DNA of 64,000 nt from Lysobacterales bacterium. Lineage in GTDB: Bacteria; Pseudomonadota; Gammaproteobacteria; Xanthomonadales; SZUA-38. Under the pieces are notes generated by a model, which saw nothing but the letters and a program-made list of their open reading frames with translations, had not been told where the DNA came from and made no database searches. A program made the translations under genes and the position numbers. The stretch lies in the NCBI GenBank assembly GCA_030065125.1, contig JASJDM010000007.1, positions 1-64,000 of the forward strand. Reading direction: 5' to 3'. Of the stretch, positions 16,985-31,262 are shown piece by piece (position 1 is the stretch's first letter; each line of letters starts with the position of its first letter).

Positions 16985-17389
16985 ATGAGTCATACCAAAT
17001 CTTACCTGACCGAACAGGACATGAAGCTGTTCGAGGACAAGGGAGAAATCGTCCAGTACAAGCCCAAGGACGTCATTCTTCACCAGGACACCGTGACCGA
17101 TAAGCTCTGCCTCATACGCTCCGGAGTCGTGCAGATCGATTTCAGCCGTGTCTACGCCCATGACACCCTGGCGCTGCTGGGTGACGGCGATTTCTTCGGC
17201 GAAGTCTCTTTCCTTGATCACCGCGAATCCAGCGCCAGCGCCATTGCCGCCAAACCCTGCGAAATCCTCGAGGTCGCCCACGACATCCTGCGCGAACTGC
17301 TGGCCGCAGACGACGGCCTGGGCGCCCGCTTCTACAAGACCATCGCCCTGACGCTGGCCAACCGGATTCGGTTTACTAACGTGCATTAG
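16985..17389 (+). CDS. Stand-alone cyclic-nucleotide-binding-fold protein
   Basis: 134 residues forming a single Crp-type cyclic-nucleotide-binding domain with no DNA-binding, kinase or channel partner domain. The phosphate-binding cassette region reads G-E-V-S-F-L-D-H-R-E-S-S-A-S-A at residues 72-86. Aligned with Crp (E-R-S-A), the conserved ligand-binding Arg is Ser82, so conventional cAMP or cGMP binding is doubtful. The ATG is preceded by ggagaagga at good spacing. It could be a protein-interaction module or a degenerate sensor. The gene lies 72 bases after the EF-hand gene; its stop abuts a palindromic repeat that may help end the transcript. Confidence 0.85.
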   Translation: MSHTKSYLTEQDMKLFEDKGEIVQYKPKDVILHQDTVTDKLCLIRSGVVQIDFSRVYAHDTLALLGDGDFFGEVSFLDHRESSASAIAAKPCEILEVAHDILRELLAADDGLGARFYKTIALTLANRIRFTNVH

Positions 17390-17491
17390 TTGGTCCGCAA
17401 GACCGCGCATCCTGCCCGGCTCGCAGTCGCTGCGCAAAACGCGGTTTTGCTTCGCTCACGGCCTTCGGCCGTTGGCACATCCATGTGCCAA
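17390..17491. repeat. R1 palindromic repeat, single copy
   Basis: Starts directly after the preceding stop codon. It has the first hairpin CCGCGCA-TCC-TGCCCGG with one internal mismatch, a perfect second stem GCAAAAC-GCG-GTTTTGC, GGCC-TTC-GGCC, and ends with the full 20-base palindrome at 17472-17491. The stretch 17492-17593 between this copy and the next shows no gene. Confidence 0.8.
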
Positions 17492-17593
17492 ATGGCTTCG
17501 ATCAAAACAGTTCTCATGCGGCACCGGGCATCCGAAGTGGGCGATGGCAATTTTTGGGGACACTCAAAAGGCCTTGCCGATAGTTGCTTACGC

Positions 17594-17668
17594 CGGCTCG
17601 CGGGCGCTGCGCAAAACGTGGTTTTGCTTCGCTCACGGCCTTCGGCCGTTGGCACATTTCTGTGCCAA
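17594..17668. repeat. R1 palindromic repeat, 5'-truncated copy
   Basis: Lacks the first hairpin. It keeps the second stem (GCAAAAC-GTG-GTTTTGC), the GGCC-TTC-GGCC hairpin and a closing palindrome TTGGCACA-TTTC-TGTGCCAA at 17649-17668. It leads, after about 42 bases, into the 23-bp hairpin array. Confidence 0.75.
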
Positions 17669-17710
17669 AGAGCTTCCTTCAAGCTATGTATCACAAGTCT
17701 CGCTCTTCCC

Positions 17711-17801
17711 AGCGTGCGCAGCACGCGTTCCCCAGGCCGCACAGCGGCCGTTTCCCAGCTCGCGCAGCGAGCGTTCCCCAGCGCCCGCAGGGCGCGTTCC
17801 C
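17711..17801. repeat. Tandem 23-bp variable-stem hairpin array (R2), 4 units
   Basis: Each unit is A + 6-base arm + 3-base loop + complementary 6-base arm + GTTCCCC (GTTTCCC once). Arms in order are GCGTGC/GCACGC, GGCCGC/GCGGCC, GCTCGC/GCGAGC and GCGCCC/GGGCGC, with loops GCA, ACA, GCA and GCA. All four stems pair perfectly although their sequences differ, while the spacer is constant. Confidence 0.85.
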
Positions 17802-17903
17802 ACAAAACAAATCCGTTGCCGAAATCCTCAGCTTTGCGGTGCTTCGTTGCGCTCTACGAAATTTGCTGTAGGATGAGATGCTCGCAACAGACAGGAGGTT
17901 CGC

Positions 17904-18149
17904 ATGCGGTTAGCCGTTCTCGCTGTAGTCAGCCTGGCCATCACGGCCTGCGCCTCGGTGCCCAACAAAAAGCTGGCTGGAGAACCTCCCCCCGTATGTA
18001 ATCCCGAAATCCAGGACAATCGCTCAGTCATGGATTCCTCCTGCATGAACCTGCTGCAGGATCTCCCCATCGCTCGCGGCCGCGTCAAGGCCACCGGCCT
18101 CAAGAAAAGCCGGGAGTGCATGGGGCCGCATTGTACGACCAGGCATTAG
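17904..18149 (+). CDS. Small lipoprotein of unknown function
   Basis: 81 residues with a clear lipoprotein signal: charged start, hydrophobic core, and lipobox I-T-A-C with the lipidated Cys16. Four further cysteines lie in the mature part (P-V-C-N-P, S-S-C-M-N, R-E-C-M-G, P-H-C-T-T), which could form disulfides in the periplasm. A strong aggagg stands six bases before ATG 17904, so translation is likely despite the small size. It lies between two nearly identical palindromic repeat blocks. I do not recognise a family. Confidence 0.75.
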   Translation: MRLAVLAVVSLAITACASVPNKKLAGEPPPVCNPEIQDNRSVMDSSCMNLLQDLPIARGRVKATGLKKSRECMGPHCTTRH

Positions 18150-18160
18150 CGTTTATTAGG

Positions 18161-18362
18161 TTCATCCGCAAGACGCGTCATCCATGACGCGCTCGCGGGC
18201 GCTACGCAAAATTGCGATTTTGCTCCGCTTACGGCCTTCGGCCGTTGGCACATGGTTGGTTCATCCGCAAGACGCGTCATCCGTGACGCGCTCGCGGGCG
18301 CTACGCAAAATGCGATTTTGCTTCGCTTACGGCCTCCGGCCGTTGGCACATCCCTGTGCCAA
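18161..18362. repeat. R1 palindromic repeats, two tandem copies
   Basis: Copies at 18161-18253 and 18260-18362, 99 bases apart and almost identical. Both carry the CGCGTCA-type first hairpin; the centre differs (ATCCATG versus ATCCGTG). The second copy ends with TTGGCACATCCCTGTGCCAA at 18343-18362, whereas the first stops at TTGGCACAT. The block leads into the second 23-bp array. Confidence 0.85.
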
Positions 18363-18404
18363 AGAGCTTCGTTCAAGCTCTGTATCACAAGTCTCGCTTT
18401 TCCC

Positions 18405-18495
18405 AGCGTGCGCAGCACGCGTTCCCCAGGCCGCACAGCGGCCGTTTCCCAGCTCGCGCAGCGAGCGTTCCCCAGCGCCCAGAGGGCGCGTTCCC
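18405..18495. repeat. Tandem 23-bp variable-stem hairpin array (R2), second copy
   Basis: The same four units and arms as at 17711-17801, with the last loop AGA instead of GCA. The 42-base lead-in also matches the earlier block with a few substitutions, so this is a duplication of the whole repeat block. The remaining 45 bases before pmbA show nothing recognisable. Confidence 0.85.
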
Positions 18496-21909: not shown

Positions 21910-22126
21910 CCGGGTATTGCAACAGAAAGTGGTGTCTGGGGCGAGTACGCAAATCCCATTTTTGCCGCTGGATGGCAGGCAATGCAGACTTTACCAATCC
22001 GCGGGATCGCGGCGATGCCTGAACATTTTCACCGATCTCGATGCTGACCTGGACATGGGCCTTCTCCATGAAACGGGCATCGGGGAAACGGGCACCGGGC
22101 CGGTCCCAGGGTCATCGCAGGCAACT

Positions 22127-24133
22127 TCATCCGCCGCGGCTGATCGGGCCGAAATACATCGGCCGGTCTTCCACCTCGATGTGCAGGGTGCGAATGTTGT
22201 TGTCATCGTTCACGTCCCCGCTGTCGCTGCGCAACTCTGCGGTCACCTGAGCTGAACCACTGCCGAAGTGGGCCTGGGCATCGAACGTGAGTACGGCCAC
22301 GCTGCCGTCTCCAGGGACACGTTCAAGAGTGCACCGCAGGGTGGTTTCACCGGCCGGAAGGCAATTCCAGGGTGTGGTGCCCGCCGGCGTGAGCTGGAAG
22401 AGATTCCGGCTGGTCAGCAGGAGTTCGGCATTCATGGCTTCCAGCCCCCAGTTGGCTACCCGAACGGATAACTCGAAAGGCCATGCAGCGACAACCGGCT
22501 GAGGCGGGGACTGAAAGTTTACCGATAGATCAGACATTGCCGGGGTTCCGTTCTGGTTTTCCATTGCCCCGGCGTCAAAGTGCTCTCCGCCCGGCACCCG
22601 AGGGTGATCCACGGGACGTATCGCACCCAGGTAGTCCCTGGACCCGCTCACCTCCGACCGTGCACACAGGTCAATGGCGGGTGAAGTGTCGGCCAACTGC
22701 AGCGTACCTTCCAGTAGCGCCGGATCTTCAGTCACATGGACGGAGATGCCCGGTACCGCATCGAGATCCATGCGGCGCTCGGCGGTTTCCAGCTCCGGCG
22801 TGACCAGGCATCGAATTTCCAGCACATCCAGGTCAGGATTGGCACCGGCCTTTTGAACATCGCCGGAATCCGCCATGAAGTGGACCGGAGCCAGCGGCTG
22901 GTCATACCAGATAATGGAATTCTCGATCAGCAGGTGTTCAACACTTTCGCTGTCTCCGTGCAACCCAAAGACCCCGTAAATGTCAGCGTCGTCGACCTGC
23001 TGATGGAGCAACGTCGTGTGGGATAAGGACAGGCGACCCGGCTGTTGCGGAGACCCGGCAACGGAAAACAGCAGTTCCGCCCTGGAGGCCGGCCGATGGT
23101 TGTCCCGAAACTGCGAGTTGGAAACCCGAACAAGGCTCTCATCGACGGCAATCAGCGACACGGACGGACCGGCGAATCCATCAACACAATCCGCCGGCCC
23201 GGAACTTACGGCGGCGTTGCCGTCAAACCTGGCGCGGTCAATGGTGACCGTGGATCGGACAGCGCTGATGGTTCCGCCGAGAGGCATCCAGGGATCATCA
23301 GGGCAGTCTGACCGGGCGCCAGGAAATCCAAGCGCGGTGTTGTCCACCACCTCGGCATCATGCAGATCCAGCGTCGAGCCGGAGAGGTAAATAACCGCAC
23401 CGCTGGTCGCCGAATTTCCGGCCATGGTCACGCCGGAAACCGCAGCCTCGCAGTTTTCCGCGTGCAGTACCCCGCCGCGGCCCGTCGCATCGTTCCCGGT
23501 GAAGACCGCGCCGGTCAGGTTCAGCGCGCTTCCGGTACAGAAGATGGCGCCACCGCCCTCTTCGGCAGGGGCACCCTGGGCGACATTGGCGATGAATTCC
23601 ACAACCTTGTGTTCAAACGGGGGCGGAGCCAGCCTCAGTGCCCCTCCGTCTTCAACGGCAATAGCGCCACCCCGATCGGCGGTGCCCTGTCGAATGCTGG
23701 CATTCCCGATGGTTACGTCAACGCTCCCGCGGATGCTGATCGCTCCACCCCCGCCAGAGGCTCGCCCATTGAGGATGTCCAGGCCGAACAACAGGACCTG
23801 TTGTCGGGTGGTCGTTGCGGCCGTGGCTTCAATAGTAATGGGCCGACGGATGCTCTGTCCGTCCAAAACGATTCGCTTTTCCGTCAGGCTGGAGATCAGC
23901 AAGGATACGTCCCGGATCAGCAGCTGTTTCGGCGGCGTGAAGTTATTCGCATCCACGTAGTAACTGGCGCAGCCTTCGGCGTCGATAGCGGTCTGAAGAT
24001 CGCGGTAGTCGGCTTTGCCGCTGTTGGAAACGATGACCGAACGGTGAGGATCCTCCGCCGGGCACAGGGGAATCTGAGCCAGCGAAAGCGATGTGATACT
24101 GCACAGCATCACGGCAACAAAAAAACGGACCAT
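22127..24133 (-). CDS. Secreted right-handed beta-helix protein
   Basis: The 668-residue product starts at ATG 24133 after a strong ggagg; the longer frame to 24181 would bury the signal peptide (M-V-R-F-F-V-A-V-M-L). The body is a parallel beta-helix with repeated G-G-A-I turns, such as G-G-A-I-S-I-R-G, G-G-A-I-A-V-E-D and G-G-A-I-F-C-T-G, as in polymorphic surface proteins. An anchor-Q-like segment follows (S-P-A-I-D-L-C, later D-A-G-A-M-E). The last ~130 residues look like an Ig-like CARDB/DUF11-type domain ending with D-V-N-D-D-N-N. It is probably exported or surface-bound. It diverges from the ECF sigma gene. Substrate or partner is unknown. Confidence 0.8.
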   Translation of the reverse strand: MVRFFVAVMLCSITSLSLAQIPLCPAEDPHRSVIVSNSGKADYRDLQTAIDAEGCASYYVDANNFTPPKQLLIRDVSLLISSLTEKRIVLDGQSIRRPITIEATAATTTRQQVLLFGLDILNGRASGGGGAISIRGSVDVTIGNASIRQGTADRGGAIAVEDGGALRLAPPPFEHKVVEFIANVAQGAPAEEGGGAIFCTGSALNLTGAVFTGNDATGRGGVLHAENCEAAVSGVTMAGNSATSGAVIYLSGSTLDLHDAEVVDNTALGFPGARSDCPDDPWMPLGGTISAVRSTVTIDRARFDGNAAVSSGPADCVDGFAGPSVSLIAVDESLVRVSNSQFRDNHRPASRAELLFSVAGSPQQPGRLSLSHTTLLHQQVDDADIYGVFGLHGDSESVEHLLIENSIIWYDQPLAPVHFMADSGDVQKAGANPDLDVLEIRCLVTPELETAERRMDLDAVPGISVHVTEDPALLEGTLQLADTSPAIDLCARSEVSGSRDYLGAIRPVDHPRVPGGEHFDAGAMENQNGTPAMSDLSVNFQSPPQPVVAAWPFELSVRVANWGLEAMNAELLLTSRNLFQLTPAGTTPWNCLPAGETTLRCTLERVPGDGSVAVLTFDAQAHFGSGSAQVTAELRSDSGDVNDDNNIRTLHIEVEDRPMYFGPISRGG

Positions 24134-24418
24134 TTTTCTTTCCTCCCAATGGGGTGTTTGCCGGGTTACAGGAACACTCACGTGGAAAGTGGAAAAAACC
24201 CGCCAGGTCAGTGCGCGGCCGGTCGAATTGGCGGGATTTGCCGCCGCCGTTAGGAGGTAGTCCTGCAGAAGACTCGCATGTAGGCCCGGGTTGCCGAATG
24301 AGTCGCCTTCCAGACGTCCTTTCTCGACCAGTAGGACATGGCCGTCAGTCCCGGCAAATATACATGGTGGTGCATTGCGGATAAGCTATGGTTCAGGATC
24401 CAGTCCGGACAAGCAACC

Positions 24419-25009
24419 GTGCCCGAAGACCAGCCCGGCAACGCGATACTGGGAGACATCACCACGGCCCTGAAAGCCAGCCGGGAGGGTGATGCGTCTG
24501 ACTGGGACCACCTGTTCAAGCTCGTGTATCAGGACCTCCGACGCCTGGCCGGCATCCAGGGCCGCAATACTCCCGACGTTGTAACCCTGGAGCGCACCGG
24601 ACTGGTCAACGAAGCTTTTCTCCGGTTGGTCAAATACAGCAATGTTGACTGGCAAAGCCGCGACCACTTTTTCGCCGTCGCCAGCAAGGCCATGCGCCAG
24701 ATCGTGGTGGACGAATGCCGCCGAAGGCTGGCGGAAAAACGAGGCGGGGGCGCAGTCCACGTGGACATCAATGACGTCGACGCCGAGGCTGAACGCCAGG
24801 CCGAGGCGGTGCTGGCCATCAACGAGGAACTGGATGCCCTGAGAGCCTCGGATCCCGATCTGGCCCGAGTGGTGGAATGCCGTTTTTTTGCCGGATACAG
24901 CGAAGAGGAAACCGCGGCCGGCATGGGCGTCTCCCTGCGCACCGTTCAGCGTAAGTGGAAACAGGCCCGCGAACTGCTCAAGGAACGCCTTCAGCCCGAT
25001 TTCGGTTGA
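24419..25009 (+). CDS. ECF-type sigma factor, TIGR02999-like
   Basis: The 196-residue product from GTG 24419 has sigma region 2 at about residues 30-105 (T-G-L-V-N-E-A-F-L-R-L-V, then V-D-W-Q-S-R-D-H-F-F-A-V-A-S-K-A-M-R). A linker with A-E-K-R-G-G-G follows. Region 4 lies at about 135-192 (R-F-F-A-G-Y-S-E-E-E-T-A and S-L-R-T-V-Q-R-K-W). These phrases are typical of the TIGR02999 group, whose genes often sit by Ser/Thr kinases rather than anti-sigma factors. Upstream open frame lacks a better start. No anti-sigma gene is present. Its 3' end overlaps the convergent kinase gene by 19 bases. Confidence 0.88.
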   Translation: MPEDQPGNAILGDITTALKASREGDASDWDHLFKLVYQDLRRLAGIQGRNTPDVVTLERTGLVNEAFLRLVKYSNVDWQSRDHFFAVASKAMRQIVVDECRRRLAEKRGGGAVHVDINDVDAEAERQAEAVLAINEELDALRASDPDLARVVECRFFAGYSEEETAAGMGVSLRTVQRKWKQARELLKERLQPDFG

Positions 25010-27771
25010 TCTGCCACCTCTAGCGCAGCCTTCAGACGATCCAGGAGATCTTGCCGGTAAGGTGCGTGCTCCGTCACCAGACGATGCAGGGTCAAAACCG
25101 GCTCCGGCGGCGGCTGGCCGGCCTCAACATAGGCCTCGAGACAATCAACCCGGATCGCCAGGGACACAGGGTGGGTCGGCGCCCGTCCCGAGCGCACCAT
25201 GTCCGCGGCACGGTCATAGGCCTCGAAGGCCGCCAGGCGGGAGCCGCTCCGGGCATGGGCCCGCGCCAGCCGGTGCGTGGTCTGGGCAAAGTGCATGGAA
25301 CCGGTTTCGCCGTTGTCTGATCGCAGGGAGATGACGCCGGTCAGATGGGCCAGTGCCGCCGGGTGGTCGCCCTGACGGGACAGCAACTCGCCCCGCAGCT
25401 CCATGGGGAAGGCCAGTCGCGGACTGTCGGGACCGAACTGACCGGTCCTGATCTCCAGTCCGCTGTCGATCAGGGCCGCCGTACCCTCGGTGTTCCCGCT
25501 CTCCAGCAGGGCATCGGCCAGGCTCAGCTGGCTGTTCCCGGTGGTCATCGCGTCCGGGCCATAGACTGCGAGTTTGCAGGACACGGCACGTTCGAGGGAA
25601 TCCACTGACGCGTCCAGGTTGCCCATCTCCAGCTGCGTATTGCCGAGATTGTTGTATACCTTGCACAGCAGCGTCGGGGTTGGAGAAGCGCCTGCCTGGG
25701 AGTCACGGATTTGCTCGAAGACCCGCTTTGCGTCTTCCAGTCGGGCGAGATCGGAAAGCGTGTTGGCGTAGTTGAAGCGGATGGTGGCCAACTCATGGTT
25801 ATTCAGACCCGCTCCGTTCCTGTGAATAGCGAGCGCCTGTTCAAAAGCTTCCACGGACTCGGGTTCCCGGCCCAGGTGATTCAACGACCGGCCGATGGAC
25901 CCCAGGGTCTTGGCAATGTCCGGGTGGAGTTCATCAAGGTACTGGCGCCGAATGGTCAATGCCTTTTGAAACACCTCCAGCGCACTGCCGACCCGCCCAT
26001 TGATCCCCAGCACCTCGCCATAGTCCGTCAGCACATCCGCCCGGGCAAGGCCATTCAGGGCAGCTGGGAACTCCCCGTCGACCAGGGCCGACTCCATGAC
26101 CGCGAGCGCCTGCCTGGGCTGTTCTGCAAACACCAGGGCCTGGGCCCAGCGGGAGCGACTGCGCAATGCCTCGTCACCGTATCCAGCCCCCAGACCGGCG
26201 TAAATTTTGCTGGCCAGGCGGAAACTCTCGAGGGCTTCGGCAAGCCGGGATACCTCCCGGAGCACTCTCCCGTTGACCCCATGCCAGCGTGCCAGGTCGG
26301 CACCGTCCAACGCCGACCGGCTTTGCTCCAGGAATCCCAGGGCGGCCTCGGGATCACCGGATCGAAACGCCACATCAGCCAGGCCGACCTGGATTGCAGC
26401 GCGCTGGGGAGGTTCGCGAGCTGCCGCCAGTGCCCCGCTGAAGCTGGACCAGGCGGCATCCAGCTGCCCCAGCTGCAGGCGATTGGATCCGATGAGGAAA
26501 AGCAGTTCCGCCATCACCGGGGCCTCGTCGGCAAGGGAAATTCGAACCTCCCGCTCCCAGCTGTCCAGCAGCGCTGCCGAGGAACTGGCGTCTCGTCCCG
26601 AATAGGGCGACGCGGTATCCAGCATCTGCCGGGTCAGGGCCTGGATCCTCTCCGCGGCCTGGGCCCGTTCGATCGCCGCATTGCGGGCCGACGAGATCTG
26701 CAGGAATGCGACCACAACAACCGCAATCAGGGCGATGGCGCTGACCAGCGCAACACCGGCGGCAAGCCGATTGCGCATCAGCAGGCGGGAAAGGGCGTAT
26801 CCCGGCCCGGCCCCGCGCGCGCTCACCGGCCGGCCCTTGCGGAACGCCTTGAGGTCTTCAGCCAGCTGCGCTGCCGATGTGTACCGGTCTTGGGGCCGGC
26901 GCTGCAGACACTTGAGCACAATGGCGTCCAGGTCGCCGCGAACCCGATTTGACTCGGTACGCTTACCGTCGGACTTCAATGCGTCACTGGGTCGGACTGG
27001 CGCACTGGCAGAAACCGCCTGCATGACCTTGACCTGGGACCCGCTTTCGGAGGCATAAGGATGACGTCCCGTAAGCAACAGATACAGAACAATGCCCAGC
27101 TGATAAATGTCCGTGGCGATAGAGATGTCCCCGCCCTCGATCTGCTCCGGACTGGAATAGCTCAGCGTCAGCAGACGACCGGTTTCGATGGCGTCGTTGT
27201 CCACGGACTTGGCGATGCCAAAATCCAGCAGCTTGACGGTTCCCTCCCGGCTGACGAGGACATTGGATGGTTTGATATCCCGATGGACCACCGCCGCCCG
27301 GTGGGCATGGTCCAGGGCCCATACCACCTGGGTGAACAGCTTGATGCGCTGGGTCAGATCCAGGCCCTGCTCCGCGCAGTACTGATCGATGGGAATCCCG
27401 TTGATGTGCTCCATGACCAGGTAGGGTCGGCCGTCGGGCGCTACGCCGCCGTCCAGCAAGCCGGCAATGTTGGGATGGGAAAGATCTGCCAGGATCTGGC
27501 GCTCCAGGCGAATTCGTTTCTCGGATCGCCGATCCCGGTGCTCATGGCGAAGCAATTTGATGGCCACGGACTGGTCGTATTCACCATCGACTCGCTGCGC
27601 CAGGTAGACCGTTGACATGCCACCGGTGCCCAGCAGGGACTCGATGCGATAATTGCCGACAACCTGCCCGACGAGCCCACCGCCATCCTCCGGCGAGAGC
27701 CGCTGCATAACCCGCATACCGCCCCCCGGGGTCAGCAGATCATCGAGATCGAGAGATTGGGTAGATGTCAT
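24991..27771 (-). CDS. Transmembrane Ser/Thr protein kinase with TPR region
   Basis: 926 residues. The Hanks-type kinase domain is at about 41-312: G-loop G-T-G-G-M-S-T-V (48-55), Lys72 in V-A-I-K, H-R-D-I-K-P-S-N (163-170, catalytic Asp165), and D-F-G (183-185). The activation segment has T-L-S-Y-S-S-P-E-Q, with Thr/Ser candidates for phosphorylation. One membrane helix lies at about 337-358. The remaining ~560 residues are helical TPR-like repeats on the far side of the membrane, presumably a sensor. All catalytic residues are present, so activity is expected. Overlap with and proximity to the ECF gene suggest the sigma factor as a target; this is inference from the family. Confidence 0.9.
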   Translation of the reverse strand: MTSTQSLDLDDLLTPGGGMRVMQRLSPEDGGGLVGQVVGNYRIESLLGTGGMSTVYLAQRVDGEYDQSVAIKLLRHEHRDRRSEKRIRLERQILADLSHPNIAGLLDGGVAPDGRPYLVMEHINGIPIDQYCAEQGLDLTQRIKLFTQVVWALDHAHRAAVVHRDIKPSNVLVSREGTVKLLDFGIAKSVDNDAIETGRLLTLSYSSPEQIEGGDISIATDIYQLGIVLYLLLTGRHPYASESGSQVKVMQAVSASAPVRPSDALKSDGKRTESNRVRGDLDAIVLKCLQRRPQDRYTSAAQLAEDLKAFRKGRPVSARGAGPGYALSRLLMRNRLAAGVALVSAIALIAVVVVAFLQISSARNAAIERAQAAERIQALTRQMLDTASPYSGRDASSSAALLDSWEREVRISLADEAPVMAELLFLIGSNRLQLGQLDAAWSSFSGALAAAREPPQRAAIQVGLADVAFRSGDPEAALGFLEQSRSALDGADLARWHGVNGRVLREVSRLAEALESFRLASKIYAGLGAGYGDEALRSRSRWAQALVFAEQPRQALAVMESALVDGEFPAALNGLARADVLTDYGEVLGINGRVGSALEVFQKALTIRRQYLDELHPDIAKTLGSIGRSLNHLGREPESVEAFEQALAIHRNGAGLNNHELATIRFNYANTLSDLARLEDAKRVFEQIRDSQAGASPTPTLLCKVYNNLGNTQLEMGNLDASVDSLERAVSCKLAVYGPDAMTTGNSQLSLADALLESGNTEGTAALIDSGLEIRTGQFGPDSPRLAFPMELRGELLSRQGDHPAALAHLTGVISLRSDNGETGSMHFAQTTHRLARAHARSGSRLAAFEAYDRAADMVRSGRAPTHPVSLAIRVDCLEAYVEAGQPPPEPVLTLHRLVTEHAPYRQDLLDRLKAALEVADQPKSG

Positions 27772-28000
27772 GCAGGTCTCCGCGGCTGCACACAGTCAAT
27801 TCCGGCATGGGGAAGCCGCTCCCTCCCCTTCCACATCCATGCTAACGCAAACTGCCGCCGATTCCCGCCTCGTACGTGGCCGGACACGGGCAGAAGATGA
27901 CGCGAGTCAACTCTGTCTGGCGGGATTCGTTCGCTGCTTGCGTGACTCCTGTCGAATCGCGGCGGCAATTGCGCGGCTGCAGGCCCTCTGGAGAATCACT

Positions 28001-30265
28001 ATGAACAACGACAATACCCCCCGACTCTGGCGAAGTATCATCACGAGCGTGCTGGCAATGCCATTGGTGCTGGGATGCCTGGCCGCCCACGCTGGCGACC
28101 CCGACCTGCTGCTCACCGTAGGCCCGGACCCGGAATGCGACCACCTGTCGCTGGAGAATGCTTGGCGGACCGTGCCACCGTCAGACGCGTTTCGCGAAGT
28201 TGAAATCCGGGTGCGCAGAGATCATCGAAGGTCCACCCACCTGGTCATTGATGATCTGGCGGCGCGGCCTGAAGGCTTTCATCTCACCATCGCTGGCGGA
28301 TACACGGCCTGCACGGACGACACTCCCCTTACCTCCCGATCCGAGCTGATGGGAAACAACCAATCCCCCATCGTGGAAATCTCAGCCGGTGGTCCCGGCA
28401 ACGGTCCCGCGCTGGACCGAACCGTCGAGTTTGTCGGTATCGAGTTTGAAGACAACGATCTCAGCGCCATCGCGCAGTCCAGGGGCGGCGCCATTTACGC
28501 CACGGCAGGTCGCGTCCTTCTGCGAGACACCCGGATCGTCAACACCGCGGCCCGGGAAGGCGGCGGCGTCTATCTTGGCGTGGATCCCCACGGGTCACGA
28601 CCGTCGCTTGTGCTTCGAGGGTTTGTCCTGCTGGGCGGGGAAGCCACCTCAACCGACCCCGGTGTCCCGGTGGCCGGCGGAACCATTGCGTGCCTGAGTG
28701 ACCCCAGCCACGGCCGCATAGAGATTGACGCCGAGGGCGCCTGGTCCGGGACCAGCCGCGCCATCGCCACCAGCGCGATCGGTGGAGGATTGCGTGGCGG
28801 GCTGGCGGCTCTGGACCACTGCACTATGCGCATGGTGGGCCCCGGATTTCTGCGGACCTTCCTGCTGGCTTCCGGGCTGGGTGGCGCCTTTGGGGGGACC
28901 ATCTGGGCGGCCAACGGTTCGCAGGTGAACCTGGCCGACGTTCGGCTGGATCCATCGGCCCAGTCCCGGTCCGGAGTGACCTTCGGCAACGGCGGCGCAT
29001 TTTACGTGGACAGCGGTTCCATACTGCGTCTATCCGGCGTCCTGGTGAGAGGGGCTGAACTGCGCGGCACAACATCCCGCGGTGGGGTGCTTTCGGCCAA
29101 CGGTGACGGAACCACCGTTGAAATCGGCTGTGCCGAGCACACCGGCGGAAACCTGTGCCGACCCGGGAGTGCCGCTCCGGTTCTTTTCGAAGTGACAACC
29201 ATATCCCGGGCCGAATCCGGGGGCGCGATCCTGGCCACCGACGGCGCCCGGATACGGGCGTCCGGATTGGTCATTGACAGTGCACGGGCAAACCGCGGCG
29301 CCGCTGTGGAGGTCGTCGGGGAATCGTCTGCGGTGACCCTGCGAAATTCCCAGATTTTGCGTTCAGCCGGCGTCAACGGCGCCACGGCAGAAAGCCTGTT
29401 CCATGTTGACGGCGGCGCACTGCATCTCGAACATGTGACGACGGCCGAAAACGATAACCTTGCAGCGTTGATCGACAGCTCCAGCGACGCACTCGTGACC
29501 GTGAACTCGTCCCTGCTTGCTGAAGACAGTGCCGTGAGCGTCATGGGCCAGCCCGGCATCGACGTCATCACGGATGGTTGTGTCCTGACCAGCGCCGCAT
29601 CACCCTATCCCGCAACGGCTGGGGCATGGGACCTGCTGCCATCCCCAGCAGATATGGGATTTGACGCTGAAAGCCCTTACCAATACCGACTGGCACAATC
29701 GTCCCTGGCAGTAGACCGCTGCGCTGGGCCAGCCACTCTGCCCACCGACATCGAGGGTGACCCCCGGGACAGCACCGCCGGGATGCCGGCATCACCTGAT
29801 CCCGGCGCTGATGAACGGGTGGGTCGCGTAAGCTACTGCCAGGTCGAGAATACCGTCCTCAATGCGGCTTCACACACCTTTGTCATGGACGTTCCGTCCG
29901 ATGAGGTGATTCGCGACCTGGACGTGGAAATGGTGCTGCAGGGGAACGCCATCTACAGGGCCAGCCTGGCCACGGGCAGTTTCAAGGCGGACCTTCATTT
30001 CGTGAATGGAGACAGGGCCGGACCCAACCACTGGTATATCGATGACGAGGCCATTGGCCGGAGCAACGCCGATATCATTGCGGTTCGACCCGACGCATTC
30101 GACGGTATCGCTGACCGGCTGGGCCAATTCGATGGACGGCCGCTGAACCTTCAGTCCTGGGTGCTGACCCTGGACAAACACTCAGACGGTACGCCAAGTG
30201 CGCTGGACCAGTGGTGTCTCACCGTCCCGCCACCGGAACAGGTGTTCGGCGACAGCTTTGAGTAA
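28001..30265 (+). CDS. Secreted beta-helix protein with C-terminal P-like domain
   Basis: The 754-residue product from ATG 28001 (ggag seven bases ahead) has a signal peptide (hydrophobic S-V-L-A-M-P-L-V-L-G-C-L, cleavage after A-H-A). The frame is open upstream but crosses the kinase start region, so it is not used. The body is a parallel beta-helix with G-G-A-I and G-G-G-V turns, then an anchor-type segment (D-P-G-A-D-E). The last ~140 residues resemble a proprotein-convertase P-like beta domain (S-W-V-L-T-L ... D-Q-W-C-L-T-V). It ends V-F-G-D-S-F-E, a tail seen on many exported proteins of related bacteria. It diverges from the kinase gene with 229 bases between. Confidence 0.8.
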   Translation: MNNDNTPRLWRSIITSVLAMPLVLGCLAAHAGDPDLLLTVGPDPECDHLSLENAWRTVPPSDAFREVEIRVRRDHRRSTHLVIDDLAARPEGFHLTIAGGYTACTDDTPLTSRSELMGNNQSPIVEISAGGPGNGPALDRTVEFVGIEFEDNDLSAIAQSRGGAIYATAGRVLLRDTRIVNTAAREGGGVYLGVDPHGSRPSLVLRGFVLLGGEATSTDPGVPVAGGTIACLSDPSHGRIEIDAEGAWSGTSRAIATSAIGGGLRGGLAALDHCTMRMVGPGFLRTFLLASGLGGAFGGTIWAANGSQVNLADVRLDPSAQSRSGVTFGNGGAFYVDSGSILRLSGVLVRGAELRGTTSRGGVLSANGDGTTVEIGCAEHTGGNLCRPGSAAPVLFEVTTISRAESGGAILATDGARIRASGLVIDSARANRGAAVEVVGESSAVTLRNSQILRSAGVNGATAESLFHVDGGALHLEHVTTAENDNLAALIDSSSDALVTVNSSLLAEDSAVSVMGQPGIDVITDGCVLTSAASPYPATAGAWDLLPSPADMGFDAESPYQYRLAQSSLAVDRCAGPATLPTDIEGDPRDSTAGMPASPDPGADERVGRVSYCQVENTVLNAASHTFVMDVPSDEVIRDLDVEMVLQGNAIYRASLATGSFKADLHFVNGDRAGPNHWYIDDEAIGRSNADIIAVRPDAFDGIADRLGQFDGRPLNLQSWVLTLDKHSDGTPSALDQWCLTVPPPEQVFGDSFE

Positions 30266-30273
30266 AAATGGGT

Positions 30274-30300
30274 GACGCCAGGAATACGCGTTCTGGCGTC
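30274..30300 (+). terminator. Hairpin after the second beta-helix gene
   Basis: GACGCCAG (30274-30281) pairs perfectly with CTGGCGTC (30293-30300) across an 11-base loop, nine bases after the stop codon. There is no U-run, so it may protect the 3' end or act as a weak terminator. Confidence 0.4.
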
Positions 30301-30539
30301 TGGTCGTGCATTGCCGCAATCAGGCCTATCCCACAGCATGGCATACTCGGCGCGGCTCGGGTTTAACCACCTCACTGTCATCCGCAACCCAAAGCCGTCG
30401 GTTCGAATTCAGGCTGTTTCTCTTTGAATTCGATCAGATTCCAGGGTAGCCGCTGTTCGCGAAGCCAATACGGCATGCAACTTTGCCACCACAAAGGACA
30501 CCAAATAGACATAGGGCCGGTGGACGAAAGGAGAAAGAA

Positions 30540-31262
30540 TTGCGTATCCGAATTGCATTACTGCTGATCATCTGTGTACTGACGGACAACGCAATGGCCG
30601 AAGGCCTGCGCGGCGATCCCGCAGCAGTCGCCGATGCCAGGTCCATGGTTGGAACAATGGGAGGTATCCACATCTGGAAAGAACTCGAGAAAGTGCATTT
30701 TGTGCACGAGTGGGATATCGCCAACCGCCACGAGCGATACCTCGAGAACGAAATACTCGATCTCACCGGCCCACGGTCGTGGGTGACCATGAAGAGCGAA
30801 AGCTACGATCGCGTCCGTGCTTACAGTCCCGAGTATGGGTACTGGAGCATCACGAACGGCAAATTCGCCCGCGGAGATGAAGTATCGCTGGCCAACGCCA
30901 TGGAGCGGGCTCCCTACAGCATTTACCGCATTGCGCGCAGCGTTGCGCGTGACGATGAGTCACTTGAGGTGCGATTCGGCACGCTCGAGGGTATCCCGGG
31001 CTTTCCAGCACTCGAGTTCGCGGATGCGGAGGGCGTGGCGCGTGGTTGGATTATTCTCAATGCCCGGAAGGAACCGGTCATCTGGGCGACCACCCAGTAC
31101 GTTTATGTGTTCGGTCCGCTTGCGCGCTTTGGCAACCTTTGGGTGCCGAACTGGGCGACCACAAACAACGGACTGGTCCGCTACGAAATGGTGTCGCTGA
31201 CTGGCCACAATGCCAAGCCGCAGCTGGGCCTGTTCGCCCCGCCTGAAGGGAATCCGGACTGA
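30540..31262 (+). CDS. Secreted protein of unknown function
   Basis: 240 residues from TTG 30540, chosen because aaggag stands at ideal distance and the product then begins with a signal peptide (R-I-R-I-A-L-L-L-I-I-C-V-L, cleavage after A-M-A). The mature part has no cysteine cluster or repeats. It has many Trp and Tyr residues and segments such as G-G-I-H-I-W-K-E-L, Y-G-Y-W-S-I-T-N-G-K-F and V-W-A-T-T-Q-Y-V-Y. These suggest a compact beta-rich periplasmic domain that may resemble lipid-binding folds, but I do not recognise a family. It runs towards the histidine kinase gene on the opposite strand, 15 bases from its stop. Confidence 0.65.
   Translation: MRIRIALLLIICVLTDNAMAEGLRGDPAAVADARSMVGTMGGIHIWKELEKVHFVHEWDIANRHERYLENEILDLTGPRSWVTMKSESYDRVRAYSPEYGYWSITNGKFARGDEVSLANAMERAPYSIYRIARSVARDDESLEVRFGTLEGIPGFPALEFADAEGVARGWIILNARKEPVIWATTQYVYVFGPLARFGNLWVPNWATTNNGLVRYEMVSLTGHNAKPQLGLFAPPEGNPD

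Follow-up and report, generated by a model that had tools for sequence, protein, structure and literature searches.

ECF43 sigma factors carry a sigma region 2.2 devoid of the charges of the DAED motif and are described as activated once a partner kinase phosphorylates a threonine there (PMC13147305, PMC8999054, PMC8103513). EcfK/PknS of Xanthomonas citri, an ECF43 system, controls a T6SS against amoebae; in EcfK a linker threonine, T106 between sigma2 and sigma4, also matters (PMC13147305). EcfP/PknT of Vibrio parahaemolyticus, likewise ECF43, belongs to the polymyxin response according to reviews (PMC8999054). Pairs of ECF43 factor and kinase are widespread, and only two outputs are described in the literature found. 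An ECF43 promoter consensus, the promoter signature described below and a secreted beta-helix-like output were all absent from the searchable full text; most subscription journals lie outside it.

The window, the whole 64 kb stretch of DNA analysed, contains an ECF43-Hanks kinase pair, which is of this known kind, flanked by the genes of two exported proteins, exoprotein 1 and exoprotein 2 (Table 1). As in EcfK/PknS, a sigma factor of the TIGR02999/ECF43 type stands beside a membrane Hanks kinase with periplasmic TPRs, and a threonine occupies the position of EcfK T51. Among PDB entries the kinase matches 9eed best (E 3e-47), a 364-residue 'kinase domain protein' whose length fits the PknS(1-364) structure of PMC13147305. 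The pair differs from EcfK/PknS in its convergent genes, in the sequence of sigma region 2.2 (ERTG, QATE in EcfK) and in its predicted targets: not a T6SS but the kinase itself and the secreted beta-helix-like protein on either side. With EcfP/PknT it shares a kinase-paired ECF factor lacking an anti-sigma and a threonine at the single sigma 2.2 phosphosite. It differs in predicted output and in that EcfP has STTA, free of acidic residues, whereas ERTG keeps one glutamate. We consider it probable, at about two chances in three, that the locus is an ECF43-type phospho-sigma module with two secreted, probably surface-exposed beta-helix proteins as output.

Table 1. Genes, predicted regulatory sites and sequence motifs of the locus (window coordinates)
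Feature	Position	Strand	Remarks
Exoprotein 1 gene	22127..24133	(-)	668 aa from ATG, signal peptide
Predicted sigma-dependent promoter of exoprotein 1	24178..24205	(-)	TGGCGGG-N16-CGTGA, starts at -72
Doubtful TGGCGGG upstream of sigma gene	24229..24235	(+)	CGT box absent at spacing 16
ECF43-type (TIGR02999) sigma factor gene	24419..25009	(+)	196 aa from GTG
Thr60 codon in ERTG	24596..24598	(+)	phospho-threonine position of sigma 2.2 in EcfP/EcfK
SLRTVQR of sigma 4.2 recognition helix	24932..24952	(+)	matches SLR[ST]xQR
Membrane Hanks-type kinase gene	24991..27771	(-)	926 aa
Predicted sigma-dependent promoter of kinase	27843..27870	(-)	AGGCGGG-N16-CGTTA, starts at -99, weaker match
Predicted sigma-dependent promoter of exoprotein 2	27918..27945	(+)	TGGCGGG-N16-CGTGA, starts at -83
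Exoprotein 2 gene	28001..30265	(+)	754 aa, signal peptide

Sigma factor, kinase and gene order

The sigma factor scores 182.9 bits against TIGR02999 in a profile search (cut-off 126.15). An alternative start at 24338 gives a product of 223 aa. No anti-sigma gene is present near the sigma gene at the locus. A Hanks-type kinase gene adjoins it, as in ECF43. The DAED motif of sigma 2.2 is replaced by ERTG, which places Thr60 at the phosphosite position; threonine or serine occupies this position in 43 of the 46 ECFs scored. ERTG retains one acidic residue, E58, unlike EcfP, and this feature of the sequence counts against the phospho-sigma explanation. TIGR02999 membership, the threonine in ERTG and the PknS-like kinase support a predicted sigma factor of the kinase-activated type.

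The kinase possesses a Pkinase domain (residues 41-302, E 1.6e-47) with all catalytic motifs (GxGxxSxV, AIK, HRD, DFG, SPE), one membrane stretch (residues 334-358) and, on the far side, a TPR-rich part (TPR_12, E 1.1e-46, five stretches). Complete catalytic motifs, a single membrane helix and far-side TPRs are characteristic of a Hanks-type receptor kinase (PknS-like). The sequence-only reading, which had proposed a TIGR02999-like ECF factor lacking an anti-sigma gene, paired with a complete Hanks-type kinase with a TPR-rich far side, is borne out on these points.

An envelope or contact signal would be received by the TPR-rich periplasmic part of the kinase. The kinase would then phosphorylate Thr60 in sigma region 2.2, and the phosphate would supply the negative charge needed by core RNA polymerase; both steps are modelled on EcfP and EcfK. 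The exoproteins may instead be the inputs, their export or folding being monitored by the periplasmic TPRs, with the sigma factor adjusting their synthesis in a feedback loop. TPRs bind proteins, and the promoter-like element described below also stands before the kinase gene, which would close such a loop; against this, the TPR part gave only repeat-level matches among 80 relatives and so lacks a conserved counterpart for comparison. We regard exoproteins as inputs as very unlikely.

The sigma and kinase genes run towards each other and share 19 bp at their 3' ends. They therefore do not form one operon, and a sigma-kinase operon was considered and rejected for this reason. Convergent order is uncommon (1/55 modules in relatives, 2/26 in the genome that holds the window). 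Tandem order with the sigma gene first is found in 39/55 modules in relatives and in 14/26 of the own genome. In the same 80 relatives neither the exact four-gene layout nor an ortholog of the whole module was found; the closest sigma match among them is 48% identical. The combination of an ECF factor, a kinase and a secreted protein bearing the promoter is seen again in several families. The symmetric four-gene unit suggested earlier is thus not sustained: its layout is not conserved, the comparative search proposed for it yielded no identical case, and its sigma factor and kinase are not co-transcribed.

Exoproteins

Both exoproteins have signal peptides (judged by eye) and GGA-rich repeats. 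In these features, and in a weak choice-of-anchor Q segment of exoprotein 1 (choice_anch_Q, 16 bits, cut-off 25), they resemble choice-of-anchor Q and right-handed beta-helix proteins (NF041518, PF13229). They differ from them in that both fall under the curated cut-offs of these families. Beta_helix matches the two proteins at E 0.09 and 0.11 (12.8 and 12.6 bits, cut-off 25.9). Exoprotein 1 contains Chlam_PMP/POMP repeats, one POMP repeat being just over its cut-off. A choice-of-anchor Q profile made from relatives matches neither protein. No homology between exoprotein 1 and exoprotein 2 is detectable beyond short repeats.

Single-sequence AlphaFold2 gave low-confidence models (pLDDT 35 and 43), so that claims on the fold rest mainly on sequence. 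In the exoprotein 1 model, short strands repeat over residues ~77-305, and parallel beta-helices make up nearly all of its best Foldseek matches, though at E 0.02 or worse and none significant. The family evidence is weak, and the beta-helix fold of both proteins is regarded as no more than probable. Of the two flanking divergent exported beta-helix proteins proposed at the outset, divergence and export stand, and the fold is retained as probable on weak concordant evidence.

Exoprotein 2 ends in VFGDSFE (30245-30265), a tail of the F-x-x-[GS]-F-E type. For exoprotein 1 such a tail was searched in every frame, including a lost tail downstream, and was not found. The F-x-x-[GS]-F-E ending is shared by many secreted proteins of this order (e.g. 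in L133, L196, L009, L010). The strict DNA form of the tail is present in 53/81 genomes and nearly absent from the reversed control. In the scanned proteins the tail was hit by none of the NCBIfam or Pfam models; it is possibly an undescribed C-terminal sorting signal.

Promoter-like element in the window and in relatives

The element was first seen by comparison of the two divergent intergenic regions. It is a dyad common to three genes, exoprotein 1, exoprotein 2 and the kinase, each copy lying in the correct orientation; the kinase copy has A for T at the first base of TGGCGGG. The search of the locus yielded no promoter for the sigma gene, and no standard sigma-70 promoters within 22000-30700. 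GGCGGG-N16-CGTKA occurs three times in the window, only upstream of both exoproteins and the kinase, against 0.18 expected, and 0/100 shuffles reach three. Since the motif had not been specified in advance, a rate for random quartets was computed: 2.4% of random upstream quartets share some 6-mer and 3-mer in three of four regions. Genome-wide the pattern shows no excess, with 11 occurrences and 14 of its reversed control, so that the signal lies in how the sites cluster within the window and not in their total number.

In relatives, 40 loci surrounding the most similar ECF genes were scanned with the window-derived pattern. Genes no more than four away from the ECF gene have 26 upstream copies of TGGCGGG. 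A [CG]GT box at spacing 16 accompanies 13 of these copies, and at any other spacing from 8 to 24 at most one has such a box; the control loci hold six TGGCGGG, none with a box at spacing 16. The nominal binomial p of 1e-12 is too small, since several loci are mutually related and not independent. Fixed patterns were used because an EM motif search over all modules of the own genome overfitted; it failed to separate relatives from controls. The promoter-bearing genes encode mostly secreted proteins: choice-of-anchor Q (L133, L115, L204), beta-propeller (L117), RCC1-repeat (L196) and others. In the genome G040, TGGCGGGATC-N13-CGTATC is carried by three secreted proteins in a row; sites of this form number four in G040, two in G022 and one in G013 genome-wide, and 0 in reversed controls. 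A more distant second ring of 20 ECF loci shows the element clearly only in L196, so the element is not a signature of all ECF43.

SLR[ST]xQR in the sigma 4.2 recognition helix is present in most loci with TGGCGGG. The site TGGCGGG-N16-[CG]G[TC] is found in 10/18 relatives' loci with this helix and in 2/37 of those devoid of it (p 7e-5, relatedness ignored). The comparison supports an element that appears to track the helix in relatives. In the own genome SLR[ST]xQR is found in only one other locus, L030, which has no such site. In a tree, most promoter-bearing ECFs belong to one supported clade of 26; the window sigma lies outside it, on an unresolved branch.

The element may also be a site for another regulator, an activator or repressor governing the exoproteins and the kinase, and not a sigma promoter. 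Some copies are part-palindromic (TGGCGGGATTTGCCGCC before the sigma gene, TGGCGGGAGTTCCCGCC in L127), and the -10 box differs between loci (CGTGA, CGTATC, GGTTA, CGACTT). The exoprotein sites, however, lack palindromy, both boxes are conserved inside a locus (L133, L122, L126, L196), and the element co-varies with the sigma 4.2 helix. ECF promoters typically consist of two boxes at a fixed 16-nt spacing, and that spacing gives the element the look of an ECF promoter. A separate regulator is considered improbable.

The common element upstream of both exoproteins, with the same element and spacing in relatives, supports the earlier proposal that the sigma factor drives the two surface proteins, as a prediction from sequence comparison. 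Active sigma would bind TGGCGGG (-35) and, after 16 nt, CGTGA (-10) before exoprotein 1 and exoprotein 2. It would bind the kinase element more weakly, which would result in positive feedback.

Parallel modules of the genome

The own genome contains 27 TIGR02999 factors, as does G022; G006 contains 35, and other families of the order are nearly devoid of them. A kinase lies within two genes of the factor in 22/26 scorable cases of the own genome. F-x-x-[GS]-F-E tail proteins lie within three genes of 17/26 modules and of 19/203 control genes, which are not independent where they adjoin (odds ratio 18, p 6e-10). Tail counts and TIGR02999 counts are correlated (Spearman 0.69, relatedness uncorrected).

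A further alternative is an ECF43 module of the ordinary sort whose targets are distant, like the T6SS of EcfK. The exoprotein genes would then lie beside it by chance, such secreted proteins being plentiful in the genome. Secreted tail proteins are indeed frequent, and the control loci themselves contain 13 per Mb; the four-gene arrangement is not kept in the 80 relatives; and convergence of the sigma and kinase genes leaves the neighbours outside one operon. Chance neighbourhood is opposed by the three identically spaced elements before exactly these genes, by the element preceding secreted proteins beside related ECFs in several families, and by the enrichment of tail proteins near the modules. 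It is judged unlikely, and the phospho-sigma module with the two exoproteins as output is preferred.

In the intergenic region 17386-18495 of the window, degenerate direct repeats are present, a 206-nt unit in two copies (94%) and a 45-nt unit in four; they hold TTGGCACAT...ATGTGCCAA-like palindromes.

A box of another sequence, TGTCCGGATT, followed downstream by CGTTA or CGCTT, has three copies in all upstream regions examined. Each copy precedes a large protein (L010, 5870-9031 and 15669-19901; L021, 3345-6473). These proteins lie near two other ECF-kinase modules of the own genome, the sigma helices of which differ. TGTCCGGATT is possibly the promoter code of those two sigma factors, and a family of -35 codes is hinted at because the TGTCCGGATT-linked factors have different helices. 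We tentatively suggest, at less than even odds, that ~27 kinase-sigma channels, partly insulated from one another, operate in this genome. Each would combine a 4.2 helix of its own with a -35 element to match, TGGCGGG in the present case and TGTCCGGATT close to two further ones, and many would control neighbouring secreted proteins.

The promoter signature, together with the helix motif that tracks it, would make the regulons of many ECF43-kinase pairs predictable. The findings also suggest that phospho-sigma signalling repeatedly has secreted, beta-helix-like surface proteins as its output. If the proposal of insulated channels is true, a bacterium of this order could pick its surface repertoire through parallel phospho-sigma switches.
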